Positions 3,506-18,662 of a DNA stretch of 18,662 nt are shown piece by piece (the first letter of the stretch is position 1; each line of letters opens with the position of its first letter). Origin of the DNA: Rikenellaceae bacterium. Its GTDB lineage: Bacteria > Bacteroidota > Bacteroidia > Bacteroidales > Rikenellaceae. Under the pieces are notes generated by a model. That model ran no database searches. It was given only the letters and a program-made list of their open reading frames with translations, and was not told where the DNA came from. The translations under genes and the position numbers were made by a program. The stretch is from assembly GCA_021203585.1 (NCBI GenBank), contig JAJQAW010000151.1:1-18662 (forward strand). The letters are read 5' to 3'.

Positions 3506-3827
3506 ACTTGCGCACTTTAATAACTTCCATAAAAGTAGGTATTTATTTTACCACTTCAAAACCGTACGGCAGACCTTCAACAACCGCGCCTGCGGTATCC
3601 TTTTTATAAAAAAAAGTAGCCGGACGGGAAAAAACAGTGTGCCGGTTTTGGTCTAATTTCGTCGAGCGTTCGAACCGGGTACCTGCACAGTGAAAAAAGA
3701 AAGGGTACGAATTGCCGCTGAGGTAACAATGACGCCGTATTCGAGCCGGGCGGACCCCCGCTTCCCGTTTGCTGTACATCGACAGATTCGGCGAGCACCG
3801 GCTTTTACCGTGGAAATAGAATATATA
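3506..3827. other. Intergenic region between the divergent GNAT and AraC genes
   Basis: This region of about 320 bases has no gene I can support. It contains a short hairpin at about 3585-3598 (ACCGC, loop GCCT, GCGGT) followed after four bases by five T. It looks like a terminator but has no obvious gene to end. A minus-strand open frame ends at 3543 with the peptide GLPYGFEVVK; I could not assign it or find a credible start for it. Near-matches to the -7 box exist on both strands (TACTTTTA on minus near 3530, TAATTTCG near 3654) but are weak. Confidence 0.4.
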
Positions 3828-4707
3828 ATGAATGAAAGCATGTCGAATATTTATTCCGTAGATCATTTTTGTTGTTACAAATACCAGGACCATGAAAAAC
3901 CCCTGCTTGAAATACTGGACGCCCATCCCGGACAACTCGTTGAACGGGACCTGAACGATACGGCCATCACCTTCCTGCTTCGCGGTTCCATGCATTTGAG
4001 CTACGATAAAGTCGTGGATCGGGAAATCGGCTGCGGAACCATCCTGCTTTTCCCACCGGGCAGCCATATAAAAGTACAGTTTGGGGAAGAAACACATCTG
4101 CTCGTTTTCCGGGTCAAAGAAATCATTCAACTGTGTAATTGTTTGACCATACAGCAATTGTATGATGAAACAGCGGTGGATAGAGACGGCTTTCATGTGC
4201 TCGGGATTCATCATCGGATTGCCCAATACCTGGACCATTTGATGGATACGGTCCGGGACGGCATCCGGTGTCCTTATTATTACGAGACCAAAATCAAAGA
4301 ATTGTTCTTTTTGCTATTGAGCTGCTATCCCCGGGAGGAATTGACCGTTTTTTTCGCCCTTACTCAGTCCGGACGTGCAGTTTATGGATCTGATGTACCG
4401 TAATTACCGCCATATAACCAGCGTTCAGGAGTTAGCCGATCTATCCCTGTACAGCAGTTCGGGCTTTAAAAAGCAATTTTACCGGGTTTTCGGAAATTCC
4501 CCTTCTGTCTGGCTGCGCAACCGGAAATCGGCTCTCATCTACCAGGACCTCAACGGCTCGGGCTTGAGCATCAAGGAGATTGCCGACAAATATCATTTTT
4601 CTTCCGTCTCTTCCTTCAGCACTTTCTGCCGGAAAAATTTCGGATCTCCTCCCGGTAAAATTCGTTCCGGAAAATCCGTTCGGCCATGGCCGACTAAAAA
4701 AGGCTAA
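3828..4707 (+). pseudogene. AraC-family transcriptional regulator, frameshifted in a 7-base homopolymer
   Basis: Two overlapping frames together make one AraC-type regulator. The first, from the ATG at 3828 (MNESMSNIYSV), is an AraC-like N-terminal cupin sensor: LLRGSMHLSY, ILLFPPGSH, then a helical linker YYYETKIKELFFLLLS. It ends out of family at TAA 4401-4403. The second frame continues the homology as PLLSPDVQFMDLMYRNY, then the two helix-turn-helix units (SVQELADLSLYSSSGFKKQF and SIKEIADKYHFSSVSSFSTFCRKNFG), ending at 4707. The switch fits the T7 run at 4348-4354; with six T the protein would be continuous at 292 residues. The open frame upstream of 3828 has no family character, so I place the start there. 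Ligand and targets are unknown. As sequenced, the product lacks its DNA-binding domain. Confidence 0.85.
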
Positions 4708-5253: not shown

Positions 5254-8070
5254 TTATTCGGCCGAGACTCCGTTCATGATTACCTGGATCCGGTTGCCGC
5301 TGGCCAGGACCTCCCGGGCCAGGTCCTGGATGTCAGCTTTGGTCAGAGCATTTACCGCTTCGGGATAGGCCCGCATGTTCAGTCCGTATTGGTAATAACT
5401 ACTCATCAGGCCGAGCCAATACCCGTTTTCTTCCAGGTTTTCTCGGTGTTTTTTCAGCATAAATTCTTTCACCTTGTTAAAATCCGCATCGGAGGGTCCG
5501 GCCTGGGCAATCTTTTCGATCTCTTCGATGGCGATCTCCAGCAGGCGGTCCCGCTGTTCGGTATTGGTATCGAAGCCGATTTGCAGGGTTCTCTCCTTTT
5601 TGGAGGCGGAAATCGACATCCCGGCTCCCGGACTATAAGTTCCTCCCTCTTCTTCCCGCATGGTTTCGGTATAACGGCTGAGCAGGATTTGACCCAGCAT
5701 ATCGGCCTGCACGCTGTTTTTCAGGGAGGGTTCGGCCTGATCGGTCAGAATCATCCGAACCGAAACTTTGGGGGATTCCATCTTTTGTTCGTAACTGTTG
5801 GTAATGACTCCCCGCGCCCGGTAAATCGGGGTTCCTGCCTGGCCCTTTGCTCCGGTAGCCGGAAGCGAAGCCAGGTATTGCTCGACATAGGGCTTGAGCT
5901 CCTGTTCGTCGATATTGCCGATGAATAGAAAGGTAAAATCACCGGCGTTGGCAAAACGTTCCCGGTAAAGCTCCAGGGTTTTTTCGTAATCGAATTGCTG
6001 CACGTCCTCTACCGTGGTGGCAGCCATGCGCGGATGGTGGCCGTACAGAGTGGAAAGCAACGAATCCTGATAAATATAGGCCGGATCGGAGGCGCTGTTG
6101 CGCAGTTGGGCGATTTGGCGAGTCTTCCACGACTCGAACGCTTAGTGATCCTGGCGCACGCCGGTGAACTGCAAGTATACCAATTGCATCATCGTTTCCA
6201 GATCGCGCGGCGCGCAACGGGCCGATACATTCTGGGTAAGTTCGCCCAGCCCGGCGCTAGCCGTGGCATTTCGGCCGGCCAGCACTTTGCCCAGATTTAC
6301 AGCGCTGAAATTACCCAATCCGCCGAGAGCCGGAGCGGAATTGATGAAGTTTAATTCCCGGATATACCGGTCGTCGATGACCGACGTACCGCCCGGACTA
6401 AATCCGGTCATCACAATTTGATCGTTTTTGAAAGTAGTCGGTTTGACCACCACCGTTGCGCCGTTGGAAAGGGTCCAGACGGTAGCGTCGAATATCGTAT
6501 CTTTCTCCGTTTTGACGATCGTACCCGGTTGGGGGAATTCGCTGATTAGCGGTTCGTCGGAAACTTCTTCCCGATAGGGTTCCATTCGGGTTTCCGTCGC
6601 TTCCCGGAAGATGGTCAGAATCTCCTCCCGGCTCGGATAAACCAAACCCTCTTTTTCCGGTCCCTGAACGGTGATAATGATATTATCGTCCGTAACCAGG
6701 GTTTTCATATATTCGTTCACGGCTTCCACGGGTAGCATCGGAGCTAACTGGTTGAATAAGTTGTACTCCAATTCGATGCCGGGTATCGGTTCTCCGTCCA
6801 GAAAAGCGCGGGTATATTCGTCGGTGTAAGAAGAATTGCGCTGTTTTTCCCGTTCATTGTAAGCGGATTCCATGCCGTTGAGGAAATTGGCCCGCGCCCG
6901 TTCGTATTCGGAGGGGGTGAAACCGTGCTGCACGGCCCGCTGAACCTCCTGGACCACTGTCCGCAGCCCCCGCTCGATGTGGTCTTCGTCCGAAATGGCC
7001 ACGACGTTGAAGGCGTCTTTGGTTTTGGTGATGCCCATAATGGCTCCGGAAAATGTTCCGGCGCTCAGGAACGGCGGATCGGGACTTTGCACCAATTCAC
7101 TGTAACGGGTATTGAGCATCGAGCTGATCATCGACTGCAGGTAGCCGTCCACATAATAGTCGGGCGTGTTGCGGTATTCCCGGGGAAAAATATCTTTCTT
7201 GTACAGAATGGTAGTCCGCACGTTTTTCATCTCTTTGTCGGTGGCCAGGGCCACGATCGGCTCCCGGTTGTCCGGAACTTCGTGGTAAATCCGTTCGGCC
7301 CGGTCATCATCCAGCGGAATATCGCTGAACATGGCTTTGATTTTGGCCTCCACGTAATCCACATCGATGTCGCCGACGATAATCAACCCTTGTAAATCGG
7401 GGCGGTACCACTTGTGGTAGTAATCGCGGATGTCCTGGTAGGGAAAATGGTCCACCACCTCCATCAAACCGATCGGTAGGCGGTGGCCGTATCGGCTGCC
7501 TTCGAAAATAACCGGCAGAATTTGGTCGAAAATTCGCATCTGCGCGGATTGCCCGGTACGCCATTCTTCGTGAATCACTCCGCGTTCGTTGTCGATCTCT
7601 TCGTCCACCAGCGCGATCCCGCAGGACCAGTCGTACAGAATCAGCAGGCAGGAGTCGACGATGCCCGGGCGGGTGACCGGAATATTCATCAGCGTATAAA
7701 CGGTTTCGTCGAACGAGGTATAAGCATTCACGTTGGCGCCGAATTTTGCTCCGATGGATTCCAGGTACTCCAGCATGGTTTTATCCGGGAAATGAGTCGT
7801 TCCGTTGAAGGCCATGTGCTCCAGGAAATGGGCCAATTCCCGCTGCGATTCTTCTTCCTGCATGGAGCCGACTTTTTGGGCAATGTGGAATTCGGCCCGG
7901 TCTTTGGGCAGTTCGTTGTGCCGGATGTAATAAGTCAGTCCGTTGTCCAGCACGCCGACCCGTACCTGCGGATCGATCGGCAGTTGTTGCGGCGCCTGGG
8001 CCATGGCCGCGCAAGAGAAGATTCCCAGCCAGAGGACCAGGGTTGTTTTCCATCTCGTGATTCTTTTCAT
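5254..8070 (-). pseudogene. M16-family zinc metallopeptidase, two-domain, interrupted by an in-frame TAA
   Basis: Read on the minus strand from the ATG at 8070, this is a 938-codon periplasmic M16 peptidase of the insulinase/pitrilysin family, common in Bacteroidota. A signal peptide covers residues 1-25 (AMA-QA cleavage). The inverted zinc motif HxxEH is His81-Phe-Leu-Glu84-His85, and the third ligand is Glu162, 81 residues after the first His as in pitrilysin. The second M16 half follows. The frame is broken only at codon 643, a TAA (6142-6144) in RQDH-stop-AFESWKTRQ. Downstream the same frame continues as normal family sequence to 5254, with no indel. Glu is the likely original residue (GAA to TAA). 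As sequenced, the product is a 642-residue protein ending in the second half. The remaining 295 codons have no good start of their own. A terminator follows at 5179-5227. Confidence 0.92.
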
Positions 8071-11626: not shown

Positions 11627-12007
11627 CCAGGGGCACCAGCGCTTTGAAAAAGCGCCGAAAATCACACCGGTCGGTTTCCCCTTCGGGTTATCTTCTGCAC
11701 GCTCGGCTTAGCTCCAGTCTGCTTGGCTCCGACCCACTCGGATATCGGTGGGCGGCCTGGGTGTAGTCAAAAACCGGCTTCTCATCCGCTCTTGGGCTGG
11801 GTGTCGGTTGGAAAAAATACCCCAAAACCTTTGGGTCCGGGTGGTAATTCCCCTTCGGGCCGGTATGTCTCGATGCCCGACGCTTCCCACAATTTTGGGC
11901 CCTCCAGTACCGAGACATACCGCATTTGCCGCCGGCGAAGGTCAGTTTCACGGAGAAAACTACCCAATCTGTTTGCTGAAAAAAATGGAATACTAACCGC
12001 TATCGTG
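11627..12007. other. Structured leader / intergenic region before the GH43 gene
   Basis: This region of 381 bases has no convincing gene, although the GH43 frame stays open upstream to 11723. It is rich in foldbacks: GCGCTTT/AAAGCGC at 11639-11655, CCCAAA/TTTGGG at 11821-11835, and a perfect 12-base inverted repeat CGGTATGTCTCG (11861-11872) with CGAGACATACCG (11911-11922). The 12-mer TTCCCCTTCGGG occurs twice (about 11676 and 11848). I recognise no known riboswitch. Confidence 0.5.
11861..11922. repeat. 12-base perfect inverted repeat with 38-base loop
   Basis: CGGTATGTCTCG and its exact reverse complement CGAGACATACCG flank a 38-base loop that can form a small inner hairpin (CCCA/TGGG). 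It could be an RNA structure in the GH43 leader or a regulatory site. It ends 85 bases before the lipoprotein start codon. Confidence 0.7.
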
Positions 12008-13546
12008 ATGAACCATACGATTTATACCTTATTGATCTTCTTTTTTCTCGCTGGATGCCGGGAAAATTCCTCCGTTTCCGGGTGGGAGCTAACCAATAAA
12101 CAGGGGGATTTGGGCAACGGATATTACCTCAATCCGATATTAAGCGGAGATTATCCCGATCCGACCATCCTGCGGGACGGAGAAGATTATTACATGACCC
12201 ATTCCTGCTTCGACTACTTGCCCGGATTGGTGGTGTTTCATTCCACAGACCTGGTCAATTGGCAGCCGATCAGCTTTGGGCTGCAAACTTATCTGGGGTC
12301 CGTGTGGGCGCCCGATATTACCCGGTACGAGGATCGCTATTACATTTATTTTACTGTCTCCAATCCACGGTCCAATTTTGTGGTCTGGTCTCACTCTCCC
12401 TATGGTCCGTGGAGTGAACCGATCGATCTGGGAATCGGAAACATCGATCCGTGTCATATCGTAGGCCAAGACGGGACCCGCTGGTTGTTTATGAGCAACG
12501 GAATTCGCCAGCAACTGACCGCCGACGGATTGGCCGTGGTACCCGGAAGCCAGGAAAAAGTATATGATGGCTGGGCGTATCCACAAGAGTGGGTGGACGA
12601 GTGTTTTTGCCTGGAAGGACCGAAACTAAAATACATCGACGGATATTACTACTACCTGAACGCCCAGGGGGGTACCGCAGGACCGCCGACCAGCCACATG
12701 GTGGTCGCCGCGCGCTCCCGGTCGATCGATGGACCGTGGGAAAATTCACCTTACAACCCGATTGTCCGCACCTGGAACAATACCGACCGCTGGTGGTCCA
12801 AAGGCCACGGCTCACTCGTCGATACTCCGCAGGGCGAATGGTGGATCGTTTACCATGCCTATGAAAACGGGTTCTACAACTTGGGACGGCAAACCCTGTT
12901 GGAACCGGTTGAATGGACGGAGGACGGGTGGTTTAAAATCCCCGAGGGAGTACGGCCGGACGAGCCGATAGCTAAACCGGTCGTTTCCGAAAAACAACCC
13001 GGCCGGCGCGACCGCCTGGGGGAGTTTCGAATCGGTTTGGATTGGAAGTTCTACAAACATTACGACCCGAACCGGTGCAGGGTGAACGCGGATACGTTGA
13101 CCATGAAAGGCCAGGGAGATTCACCGGGAACTTCTTCTCCGATCCTATTCGTGGCCGGAAACCATGCGTATGAAGTGCAGGTAGAGATCGAAAAGGATCC
13201 GGGAACCGTGGCCGGATTACTGCTCTATTATAACAGTGATTTTTATGCCGGAACCGGTTTTGACAGCCACCGCCGGTACCGTTACCGCAAAGGCCAGGCT
13301 GCTGGGCGTGGAGCCCATACCGAAGGAGACGGCAACCGGTTGTGGCTTCGGCTCCGGAACGATCGTCAAGTAGTTACCGGCGCCTACAGTTACGACGACC
13401 ACACCTGGTACAACGAGGAGTGGGGGATGGAATTATCCGGCTATAACCACAACACGCTGTATGATTTCCAAAGTCTTCTGCCTGCTTTGTTCGTGCACGG
13501 CCAAGGAGAGGCCCGGTTTAAAAATCTCCGGTATACCCTGCTTTGA
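12008..13546 (+). CDS. GH43 family glycoside hydrolase lipoprotein (beta-xylosidase / alpha-L-arabinofuranosidase type)
   Basis: This 512-residue five-bladed-propeller glycosidase is predicted to remove xylose or arabinose from xylan-type glycans with inversion. The start is set at ATG 12008 because it opens a lipoprotein signal peptide: a hydrophobic stretch ending LAGC with Cys17. The open frame upstream to 11723 has no such character. The three GH43 carboxylates are visible: base Asp51 (DYPDPTIL), pKa modulator Asp147 (GNIDPCH) and acid Glu203 (CLEGPKL). The catalytic domain spans about 38-315. The C-terminal part (about 325-512) looks like a beta-sandwich of the kind that caps many GH43 enzymes (DUF1349 / concanavalin-like). 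As a lipoprotein it is either periplasmic-facing or surface-exposed. Exact specificity cannot be decided by eye. The nearby xylose genes make xylan or arabinoxylan a reasonable inference. Confidence 0.93.
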   Translation: MNHTIYTLLIFFFLAGCRENSSVSGWELTNKQGDLGNGYYLNPILSGDYPDPTILRDGEDYYMTHSCFDYLPGLVVFHSTDLVNWQPISFGLQTYLGSVWAPDITRYEDRYYIYFTVSNPRSNFVVWSHSPYGPWSEPIDLGIGNIDPCHIVGQDGTRWLFMSNGIRQQLTADGLAVVPGSQEKVYDGWAYPQEWVDECFCLEGPKLKYIDGYYYYLNAQGGTAGPPTSHMVVAARSRSIDGPWENSPYNPIVRTWNNTDRWWSKGHGSLVDTPQGEWWIVYHAYENGFYNLGRQTLLEPVEWTEDGWFKIPEGVRPDEPIAKPVVSEKQPGRRDRLGEFRIGLDWKFYKHYDPNRCRVNADTLTMKGQGDSPGTSSPILFVAGNHAYEVQVEIEKDPGTVAGLLLYYNSDFYAGTGFDSHRRYRYRKGQAAGRGAHTEGDGNRLWLRLRNDRQVVTGAYSYDDHTWYNEEWGMELSGYNHNTLYDFQSLLPALFVHGQGEARFKNLRYTLL

Positions 13547-15723: not shown

Positions 15724-15754
15724 TTGGTTTTGTAAGCGGTAGTGTGTAATTTTG
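15724..15754 (+). promoter_or_regulatory. Promoter of the regulator-xylB unit
   Basis: TTG at 15724-15726, a 20-base spacer, then TAATTTTG at 15747-15754, an exact TAnnTTTG -7 box. It starts three bases after the operator. Transcription would begin near 15761, which argues against a TTG start codon at 15752 and for the ATG at 15785. Confidence 0.55.
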
Positions 15755-15784
15755 AAAAACAAGTTAACGATCAACGGATTAGAA

Positions 15785-16543
15785 ATGGTTCCGACAAAAA
15801 ATCCCTCCATATCGGTCGATTGCGTGGTGTTCGGTTTCGACGGAGCGTCGCTGAAGGTGCTTCTGGTTAAACGGAGGTACCGGGAAACCACCCCGGCCGG
15901 AGAGGTAATTGCCCGGGAAGATTTTAAGCTTCCGGGAAGCCCGATTTATAACGATGAAGACCTTTCCACCTCGGCTTACCGGGTATTGGAAGAACTGACC
16001 GGATTGAAGCAGGTTTATCTGAAGCAGCTTCAGGTCTTTTCCGATCCCCATCGGATCGATTCCAAAAGCCTCGGGTGGCTCAATGAAACCTACGGTTTTC
16101 AAACCCGACGGATCATTACCATCGCTTATTATTCCCTGGTGAAACTGAATTCCCACATGGTGGCCCACACCTCCATGCGGAAGGCGGTGTGGCAGGATGT
16201 GCAATCGATCAAACGGCTTGCCCTGGACCACAAACAAATTCTGGGTGTGGCGCTCAATACGCTGAATAAACAGTTGGTCAACGAACCCATCGCTTTTGAA
16301 TTGCTGCCCAAACGCTTTACCATTCGACAGCTTCAGGGACTTTACGAGGCGATATTGGGCTTTGAAATCGACAACCGCAACTTCCGCAAAAACCTCCTCG
16401 GATCGGGTTACCTGGAGCCTACGGAGGAAAAAGAGCGAAACGTGGCCCATAAACCGGCCTTGCTGTATACCTTCAACCGCCATGCCTACGAAAAGGAAAT
16501 TCGGAAGAAATCGACATTGAATTTTGTAAATTGGCACGATTAA
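15785..16543 (+). CDS. Nudix-HTH (NrtR-like) transcriptional regulator of xylose use
   Basis: This 252-residue regulator has an N-terminal Nudix-fold sensor (about 1-140) and a C-terminal winged helix (about 145-225: LPKRFTIRQLQGLYEAILG, NFRKNLLGSGYLEP). The Nudix box GSPIYNDEDLSTSAYRVLEELTGL keeps the outline but lacks the full REUxEE catalytic glutamates. This is typical of the NrtR/AraR branch that binds a metabolite and does not hydrolyse it. In Bacteroides a regulator of this type commonly precedes xylB and xylA, as here. The effector is therefore likely a xylose-pathway sugar or sugar phosphate (inference). The ATG at 15785 is preferred because the -7 box at 15747-15754 overlaps the alternative TTG start at 15752, which would add 11 residues. 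xylB follows 20 bases after the stop, and a palindromic operator precedes the promoter. Confidence 0.9.
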   Translation: MVPTKNPSISVDCVVFGFDGASLKVLLVKRRYRETTPAGEVIAREDFKLPGSPIYNDEDLSTSAYRVLEELTGLKQVYLKQLQVFSDPHRIDSKSLGWLNETYGFQTRRIITIAYYSLVKLNSHMVAHTSMRKAVWQDVQSIKRLALDHKQILGVALNTLNKQLVNEPIAFELLPKRFTIRQLQGLYEAILGFEIDNRNFRKNLLGSGYLEPTEEKERNVAHKPALLYTFNRHAYEKEIRKKSTLNFVNWHD

Positions 16544-16563
16544 CCATAAGAATCCCTGAAACT

Positions 16564-18051
16564 ATGAAAACATTAGGATTGGATATCGGAAGCTCATCGG
16601 TGAAGGCCGCCGTACTGGATACGGAAACGGGGGCCTGTGTGGCTTCGTTTACCTCTCCCGCTACGGAACTTCCCATCGATGCTCCGCAGCCCGGATGGGC
16701 GGAACAAGCGCCCCAGATGTGGTGGGAACATGTATCCGTTTGCTTGCAGGAAATTTTCCAAAGCGGAAAAGTGCAGGCGGCGGAAATAGCCGCCATTGGA
16801 ATTACCTACCAGATGCACGGAATGGTGGCTCTGGATGCCGAGGGTCAGCCATTGCGTAATTCCATCATCTGGTGCGACAGCCGCGCGGTGAGTCTCGGAG
16901 AACAAGCTTTTCGGCAAATCGGGCCGGAGAAATGCCTGTCGGAGTTGCTCAATTCACCCGGTAATTTTACCGTCTCGAAACTGGCCTGGGTGAAAGAAAA
17001 CGAGCCGGAGATTTATGCCCGGGTGGATACGGTGATGCTGCCCGGCGATTACATTTTATATCGCTTATCCGGCGAAAAATCCACGACCCAGAGCGGTTTG
17101 TCCGAGCAAATTCTCTGGAATTTCCAGCAGGACGGTTTTGCCGACAGGGTGGCCGAGTTTTACGGGATTGCCCGGGAGGTGATTCCCCAGGCCGGGCCCA
17201 ATATCGGAATACAAGCCTACACAACGCCGGCTATCGAGCGGCAATTCGGAATCCCGGCAGGAACCCCCATCGCCTACCGTGCCGGGGATCAACCCAATAA
17301 TGCCTTTTCCCTGAATGTATTGGAGCCTGGAGAGGTGGCAGCAACCGGAGGTACTTCCGGGGTGGTTTACGGGGTGACCGATCAAAGAAAGGCCGACCCC
17401 CAGTCCCGCGTAAATACCTTTCTGCATGTCAATCACGGGGGGGAAGGGCCGCGTTACGGAGTGTTGCTTTGTATCAACGGGACAGGCATCCTGAACGCTT
17501 GGATGAAACGTTTGGCCGCGGACCATTTGAACTACGATCAAATCAATGCGCTCTGTGAGCTCGTGACGGCCGGAAGCGAAGGAGTCACGATGCTTCCCTT
17601 CGGAAATGGAGCGGAACGGATGTTGTGCAACCGGTATACCGGAGCCGTGATGGCTGGAGTGGACTTGAACCGCCACGGAAAACCCCACGTATTCCGAGCC
17701 ACTCAGGAAGGCATCGCCTTTGCTTTCCGTTATGGCATGGATATACTCCAAGGGATCGGCGTGGATACTCGCCTGATCCGGGCCGGGAGGGCTAACCTGT
17801 TTTTGAGCCCCCTGTTCCGCGAGACGTTGGCCACTGTGGCCGATGCCAAAATCGAGTTATACAATACCGACGGGGCTTTGGGCGCTGCCCGGGGTGCGGC
17901 TCTGGGGGCCGGCATATACCGCTCCCGGGAGGAAGCCTTCGATTCTTTGAAAAAAATCGAAGCAGTGGAACCGAATCCGGTCATTAAACCGGCGCTGGAA
18001 GAGGCCTATCTGCGGTGGAAGTCGGAACTGGACCGGCATCTTACCGCCTAA
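16564..18051 (+). CDS. xylB: Xylulokinase
   Basis: This enzyme phosphorylates D-xylulose with ATP to xylulose 5-phosphate, which enters the pentose phosphate pathway. The 495-residue length is typical of FGGY carbohydrate kinases. Visible features are the N-terminal phosphate-binding GLDIGSSSVKAAV (residues 5-17) and QMHG (83-86) and WCDSR (103-107) of the sugar pocket. The catalytic-base region AGDQPNN (Asp242) and the ATP-domain segment TGGTSGVVYG (261-270) follow. LLPFGNGAER-like TMLPFGNGAERML and GTGILNAWMKR complete the pattern. The ATG at 16564 gives the canonical N terminus; the open frame runs 11 codons upstream into the end of the regulator gene but has no family character. It is 20 bases after the regulator and probably in one operon with it. 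The frame is intact. Confidence 0.95.
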   Translation: MKTLGLDIGSSSVKAAVLDTETGACVASFTSPATELPIDAPQPGWAEQAPQMWWEHVSVCLQEIFQSGKVQAAEIAAIGITYQMHGMVALDAEGQPLRNSIIWCDSRAVSLGEQAFRQIGPEKCLSELLNSPGNFTVSKLAWVKENEPEIYARVDTVMLPGDYILYRLSGEKSTTQSGLSEQILWNFQQDGFADRVAEFYGIAREVIPQAGPNIGIQAYTTPAIERQFGIPAGTPIAYRAGDQPNNAFSLNVLEPGEVAATGGTSGVVYGVTDQRKADPQSRVNTFLHVNHGGEGPRYGVLLCINGTGILNAWMKRLAADHLNYDQINALCELVTAGSEGVTMLPFGNGAERMLCNRYTGAVMAGVDLNRHGKPHVFRATQEGIAFAFRYGMDILQGIGVDTRLIRAGRANLFLSPLFRETLATVADAKIELYNTDGALGAARGAALGAGIYRSREEAFDSLKKIEAVEPNPVIKPALEEAYLRWKSELDRHLTA

Positions 18052-18224: not shown

Positions 18225-18662
18225 ATGAAAAGCATGTTTGAAGGGATCGGTAAAATCCGATATGAAGGAGCGGATTCGAAGAATCCGTTGGCATTCCGGT
18301 GGTACGACGAGAACCGGGTCATTCTGGGAAAAACCATGAAAGAACACCTGCGTTTTGCGGTTGCTTACTGGCACTCCTTTTGTGCCCAGGGAGGAGACCA
18401 ATTCGGGGGCCCTACGATCGATTTTCCCTGGAACGCGATTGTCGATCCGGTGGAACGGGCCAAAGCCAAAATGGATTCCGCCTTCGATTTCATGGTAAAA
18501 ATCGGAGCCCCGTACTATTGTTTCCACGACGTGGACCTGGTGGACGACAGCGGCAATCCGGTGCCTCCCGGCGAGGTGGGGGAGCTGGTGCTGCGGGTGC
18601 CCGAGGACAAAAAGCAAAACGGCCTGTTCCGGGGCTACTACAAGGACCCGGACCTGACCGCC
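18225..18662 (+). CDS. xylA: Xylose isomerase N-terminal part joined in frame to an acyl-CoA synthetase fragment (probable chimera)
   Basis: The frame is open from ATG 18225 to the window edge (146 codons). Codons 1-102 are xylose isomerase: [43 protein letters not shown] and YYCFHD, with the catalytic His101 (and Asp104 just after) in the FHDVD motif. This enzyme converts D-xylose to D-xylulose, the substrate of XylB, so its place is as expected. From about codon 103-107 the sequence turns into [17 protein letters not shown] ... [13 protein letters not shown]. That is a middle segment of AMP-forming acyl-CoA synthetases (A7/A8 region) and nothing like a xylose isomerase barrel. By hand count, third positions are G or C in 61 of 102 codons before and 40 of 44 after. 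The metal-binding part of the isomerase is missing. I read the first 306 bases as genuine and the rest as foreign. Confidence 0.9.

Follow-up and report, generated by a model that had tools for sequence, protein, structure and literature searches.

The last open reading frame (ORF) of the stretch of DNA analysed here (the window) reads as the N-terminal part of a xylose isomerase followed by a piece of an AMP-forming acyl-CoA synthetase, and sequence comparisons indicate that this half-isomerase, half-synthetase gene is almost certainly an assembler chimera formed at a shared k-mer and not a real feature. The window is the whole of a contig (C375, 18662 bases) from a 2.29-Mb assembly of 404 contigs, which has a stated completeness of 82.3% and contamination of 2.28% and which we regard as a metagenome bin. 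The joint lies about 110–135 bases from the end of the contig and the pieces that it connects most likely come from two different bacteria. A false join by an assembler had been proposed in the first-pass annotation of this DNA; it is supported by the contig end, the intact xylA gene of a congener, the word that the two families share at the joint, the Oscillospiraceae-like nature of the tail and the failure to find a second example. The features concerned are the following.

16564..18051, + strand: xylB, encoding a xylulokinase-like FGGY kinase (TIGR01312), an uninterrupted frame directly upstream of the xylA part
18225–18662, + strand: the last ORF, 146 codons, open up to the window end
18225..18527, + strand: N-terminal part of xylA, 101 codons, genuine-looking (TIGR02630/NF003998; 82% amino acid identity to congener G001, 87% to P0009)
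18528..18548, + strand: the joint, DVDLVDD, a word that some members of each parent family possess; the switch falls at 18530–18551
18549..18662, + strand: putatively foreign tail, an Oscillospiraceae-like fragment of an AMP-forming acyl-CoA synthetase gene, cut by the contig end (end of PF00501, NCBIfam models)

The change from isomerase to acyl-CoA synthetase in mid-frame, first seen in the letters of the sequence, was recovered in profile searches against both families. The ORF follows XylA up to codons 102–108 and then, with no shift and no stop, continues as AMP-forming acyl-CoA synthetase, the tail peptide (18549..18662) being [13 protein letters not shown]...[10 protein letters not shown]. 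Residues 1–109 align to the N-terminus of the XylA family (NF003998, E = 1.3e-47, profile positions 1–109 of 439; the N-terminal part against TIGR02630, E = 5.3e-45, 154.1 bits, positions 1–107 of 435), but the ORF leaves this family at residue 102–108 of about 436. The last 45 codons, searched alone, match acyl-CoA synthetase models, the best being NF005897 (E = 2.5e-5), and cover only positions 344–384 of 384 in PF00501 (E = 2.9e-5, 22.8 bits against a gathering score of 29.9), so that only about 44 of the about 550 residues of such a synthetase are found here. All matches of the ORF stay below the curated cut-offs, as fragments would be expected to do; for TIGR02630 the cut-off is 533.25 bits, and the XylA of congener G001 scores 680.2. 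The motif FHD (residues 100–102) and the DVDLVDD that follows it (18528–18548) are located where the first-pass annotation had placed them, and the jump in third-position GC (GC3) that it had described, from 61/102 codons before the joint to 40/44 after it, was reproduced (Fisher p = 1.5e-4). When overlapping 44-codon windows were scanned in 12 other ORFs on this contig, none had as many as 40 (0 of 3332 + 600 + 226; highest value, 38).

Comparison base by base, with the xylA gene of G001 and an Oscillospiraceae synthetase gene (G081) as references, placed the best switch point after position 18550, on a plateau (within one base) that extends from 18530 to 18551. Without gaps, the window is identical to the G001 xylA gene at 80/96 bases before 18528, versus 27/96 for the G081 synthetase gene; after 18547 the corresponding values are 26/103 versus 75/103. 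Between the two, at 18528–18547, it matches both genes, at 18/20 and 16/20 bases, respectively. Gene family and nearest relatives change at one point, as expected of a chimeric contig.

Analysis of related genomes showed intact counterparts of the isomerase part. A complete xylA had been anticipated in close relatives, and in congener G001 a xylB homologue is indeed followed by an intact 436-aa XylA. The N-terminal part of the window's ORF is 82% identical to this XylA over 102 residues, and the product of xylB is 78% identical over 491 residues to that of the ORF upstream of xylA in G001; against TIGR01312 (XylB) it gives an E-value of 8.1e-90 and 301.6 bits, less than the curated cut-off of 380.25. 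The closest isomerase found at the protein level is P0009 (87% identity over 108 residues). The N-terminal part was matched in 35 of the 81 genomes searched, its own genome counted, and frames were fetched from 19 of the 34 matching relatives. All 19 continue as isomerase past FHD and contain both the EPKP and the ExNHA regions, which we take to hold the metal ligands of the enzyme and which are absent from the window's ORF; none of the 19 contains the synthetase part. Beyond FHD, 18 of these frames have another 333–335 residues and one (L014) runs to the end of its contig. A search of plasmids matched 20 records (17 annotated as xylA, 3 without annotation), and all 20 listed places fall in the isomerase part of the query. 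The remainder of xylA was not found in the assembly itself, where a search with the family gave a single match, the window's own (profile positions 1–107 of 435).

The frame at L014, from another member of the host's family, lies on a 3522-base contig (G005:C151); it agrees with other isomerases as far as residue ~332, after which ~34 poorly aligning residues lead to the contig end, perhaps through a second misjoin at a contig end, or through a frameshift. P0016, a Rikenellaceae bacterium protein, appears to be the product of the same gene.

The closest synthetase to the tail is 84% identical to it as protein, and the nearest DNA found is 75% identical. Over the last 44 residues, amino acid identity is 79–84% to five of the seven related fragments (P0002–P0006), 58% to P0007 and 48% to P0008. 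An Oscillospiraceae metagenome-assembled genome, TD116_bin58 (L029/L132), encodes a synthetase with 74% identity, and another genome of the same genus (L111) one with 70%. An origin of the tail in the host's own order, probably the Bacteroidales to judge from named matches such as P0016, was considered and rejected, as three same-order synthetases are only 42–47% identical to it, versus 74% in the Oscillospiraceae; no alignment was obtained for a fourth, L139. Synthetases resembling P0003 do occur in that order, the best ten listed being 57–62% identical to it, including one from the same family (G032). The nearest NCBIfam model to P0003 is NF047394 (MbcS), with a score that falls under the cut-off because P0003 is a fragment. 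Tail excepted, the best P0003 matches among those listed are 34% identical in the window's own assembly and 33% in congener G001. The P0003 query gave no second close copy of the tail in the assembly, only the tail itself and the synthetase on contig C385 at 34%. With the AMP-binding family as the query, the assembly yielded five matches, namely C385 (full length), C58 (as two adjacent pieces), the tail and a weak match on C365 under the cut-off. An in-frame TGA had been flagged in the C385 synthetase; by eye it looks like an ordinary stop, with a typical C-terminus there.

A scan of genome contigs for the donor confirmed at least 298 relatives, and the best of the top 80 among them was 73% identical. 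At the DNA level, the tail was matched in 26 of 396 genomes from the family of the best match and in 6 of 11 genomes from its genus, G081 included in both counts. The donor species was not found, as none of these 396 family and 11 genus genomes has a match better than the 75% of G081. The GC3 of the tail (0.91) exceeds that of all nine synthetase ORFs measured (0.49–0.81; nine of sixteen loci, the other seven being without an ORF under the motif used), so base composition points to no known donor. By its protein affinities, the donor is probably a clostridium outside the collections searched.

The joint had been thought plausible in both families, and this was borne out: the word DVDLVDE is present in some unjoined isomerases (8 of the 120 listed, P0009 among them) and in some unjoined synthetases (3 of 7, including P0002 and P0003), which suggests that about 20 nucleotides of DNA are shared there. 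At the joint, the sequence is [10 protein letters not shown] in the isomerases P0009 and G001 and LYDVDLVDED in the synthetases P0002 and P0003. Across 840 isomerase–synthetase pairs, the longest common word has 7 residues; DVDLVDE is shared by 24 pairs, and the other such word, PKTISGK, is found in 1/120 isomerases and 7/7 synthetases. In DNA, the G001 xylA and G081 synthetase genes have 15/20 nucleotides in common at the joint, and at least 15 matches are reached in only 4 of 245670 in-frame pairs of 20-mers from these two genes. When all frames are taken, 15 pairs reach at least 15 matches and two reach 16, which puts the joint among the best places without making it the single best. Among the closest DNA sequences available, G001 xylA departs from the window at 2/22 positions of the joint and the G081 synthetase at 5/22; true parents with GC-rich codons could be identical over about 20–22 bases, a length close to the minimum k-mer size of common assemblers.

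If the gene is an assembler chimera, the contig would, as far as about 18530–18550, represent a segment of one genome, probably from the Bacteroidales and with the gene order regulator, xylB, xylA. The assembler would have met a k-mer of about 20–22 nucleotides, around 18526–18547, that is also present in an acyl-CoA synthetase gene from an Oscillospiraceae-like clostridium in the same sample, taken the wrong branch for another ~110–135 bases and then stopped. The join inside DVDLVD(E/D) would keep the frame because both proteins encode this word there in the same codon phase. Such a chimera would account for the contig end, for the switch of family, affinity and composition, for its position and for the kept frame. 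What we infer from these comparisons is that the two true parents are identical over the k-mer, that the assembler took this step, and to which taxon each parent belongs.

Passages of two earlier papers (PMC7299287, PMC8171044) describe how chimeric contigs can arise when k-mers shared between genomes link their de Bruijn graphs. As in the chimeras treated in those passages, the sequences of two genomes appear here to meet at a stretch that each of them contains. The passages deal mainly with related species (or with sequencing errors), whereas the stretch in the window belongs to unrelated families, both of which encode DVDLVD.

It is very improbable that xylA truly recombined, across phyla, with a synthetase gene acquired from a clostridium, by an illegitimate event at the shared ~20-nucleotide word that left a dead fused gene in this strain. 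In favour of such an event, the frame is kept exactly across the join, the word there is present in both families and might equally serve as a site of illegitimate recombination, and the assembly shows no other piece of xylA. Nevertheless, such an event would have had to fall within ~110–135 bases of a contig end by chance, the tail looks clostridial and has no other close relative found in the assembly, and the event would have destroyed xylA right behind an uninterrupted xylB. Nor did searches for tail-related proteins, which required shared five-residue words and covered lengths of 80–256 aa and 113–359 aa only, give a second example. No second protein with both parts was among the proteins recovered (2 and 8, respectively); the window's own protein appeared in both sets and was the sole one with an isomerase part. 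Likewise, none of the 120 isomerases listed, out of 1098 found with residues 1–110 of the congener's XylA, had a match to the tail, and none of the seven synthetases P0002–P0008 had a match to the isomerase. A functional isomerase–synthetase fusion enzyme is hardly credible at all, for although the open frame runs across the joint, its isomerase part would end at residue 102–108, before the EPKP and ExNHA regions that all 19 relatives' frames possess, and its synthetase part, present in none of those 19 frames, would begin only near position 344–353 of the 384 in the PF00501 profile.

Read as an assembler chimera, the joint has little biological weight but illustrates clearly how assembly could produce an in-frame 'fusion gene'. 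The shared k-mer would come from two unrelated families whose genes specify identical residues in one codon phase, so that the artefact would arise with neither of the telltale signs, a frameshift or a stop. Gene fusions claimed from sequence at a contig end should be examined for in-frame misjoins of this kind.

The rest of the contig offers several further observations. The regions 11723–13546 and 15752–18051 look like a xylan- or pentose-use neighbourhood, with a GH43 glycoside hydrolase, a LysM-like ORF (recognized by eye) and, immediately ahead of xylB and xylA, a regulator of the nudix/winged-helix type. A xylose transporter gene had been expected after xylA; G001 was the only genome inspected for it, and the 1287 bases past its xylA stop contain one ORF of at least 150 aa, which is on the other strand and by eye sigma-factor-like. 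The M16 peptidase gene at 5254–8070 (− strand) has one in-frame TAA at 6142–6144, with M16 domains in both halves, and is either a pseudogene or affected by a base error. At 3690–4707 (+ strand), an AraC-type regulator is seemingly split over two frames that overlap at 4375–4403; the helix-turn-helix domain is in the second frame and the first frame has no Pfam match, the split having been read by eye.
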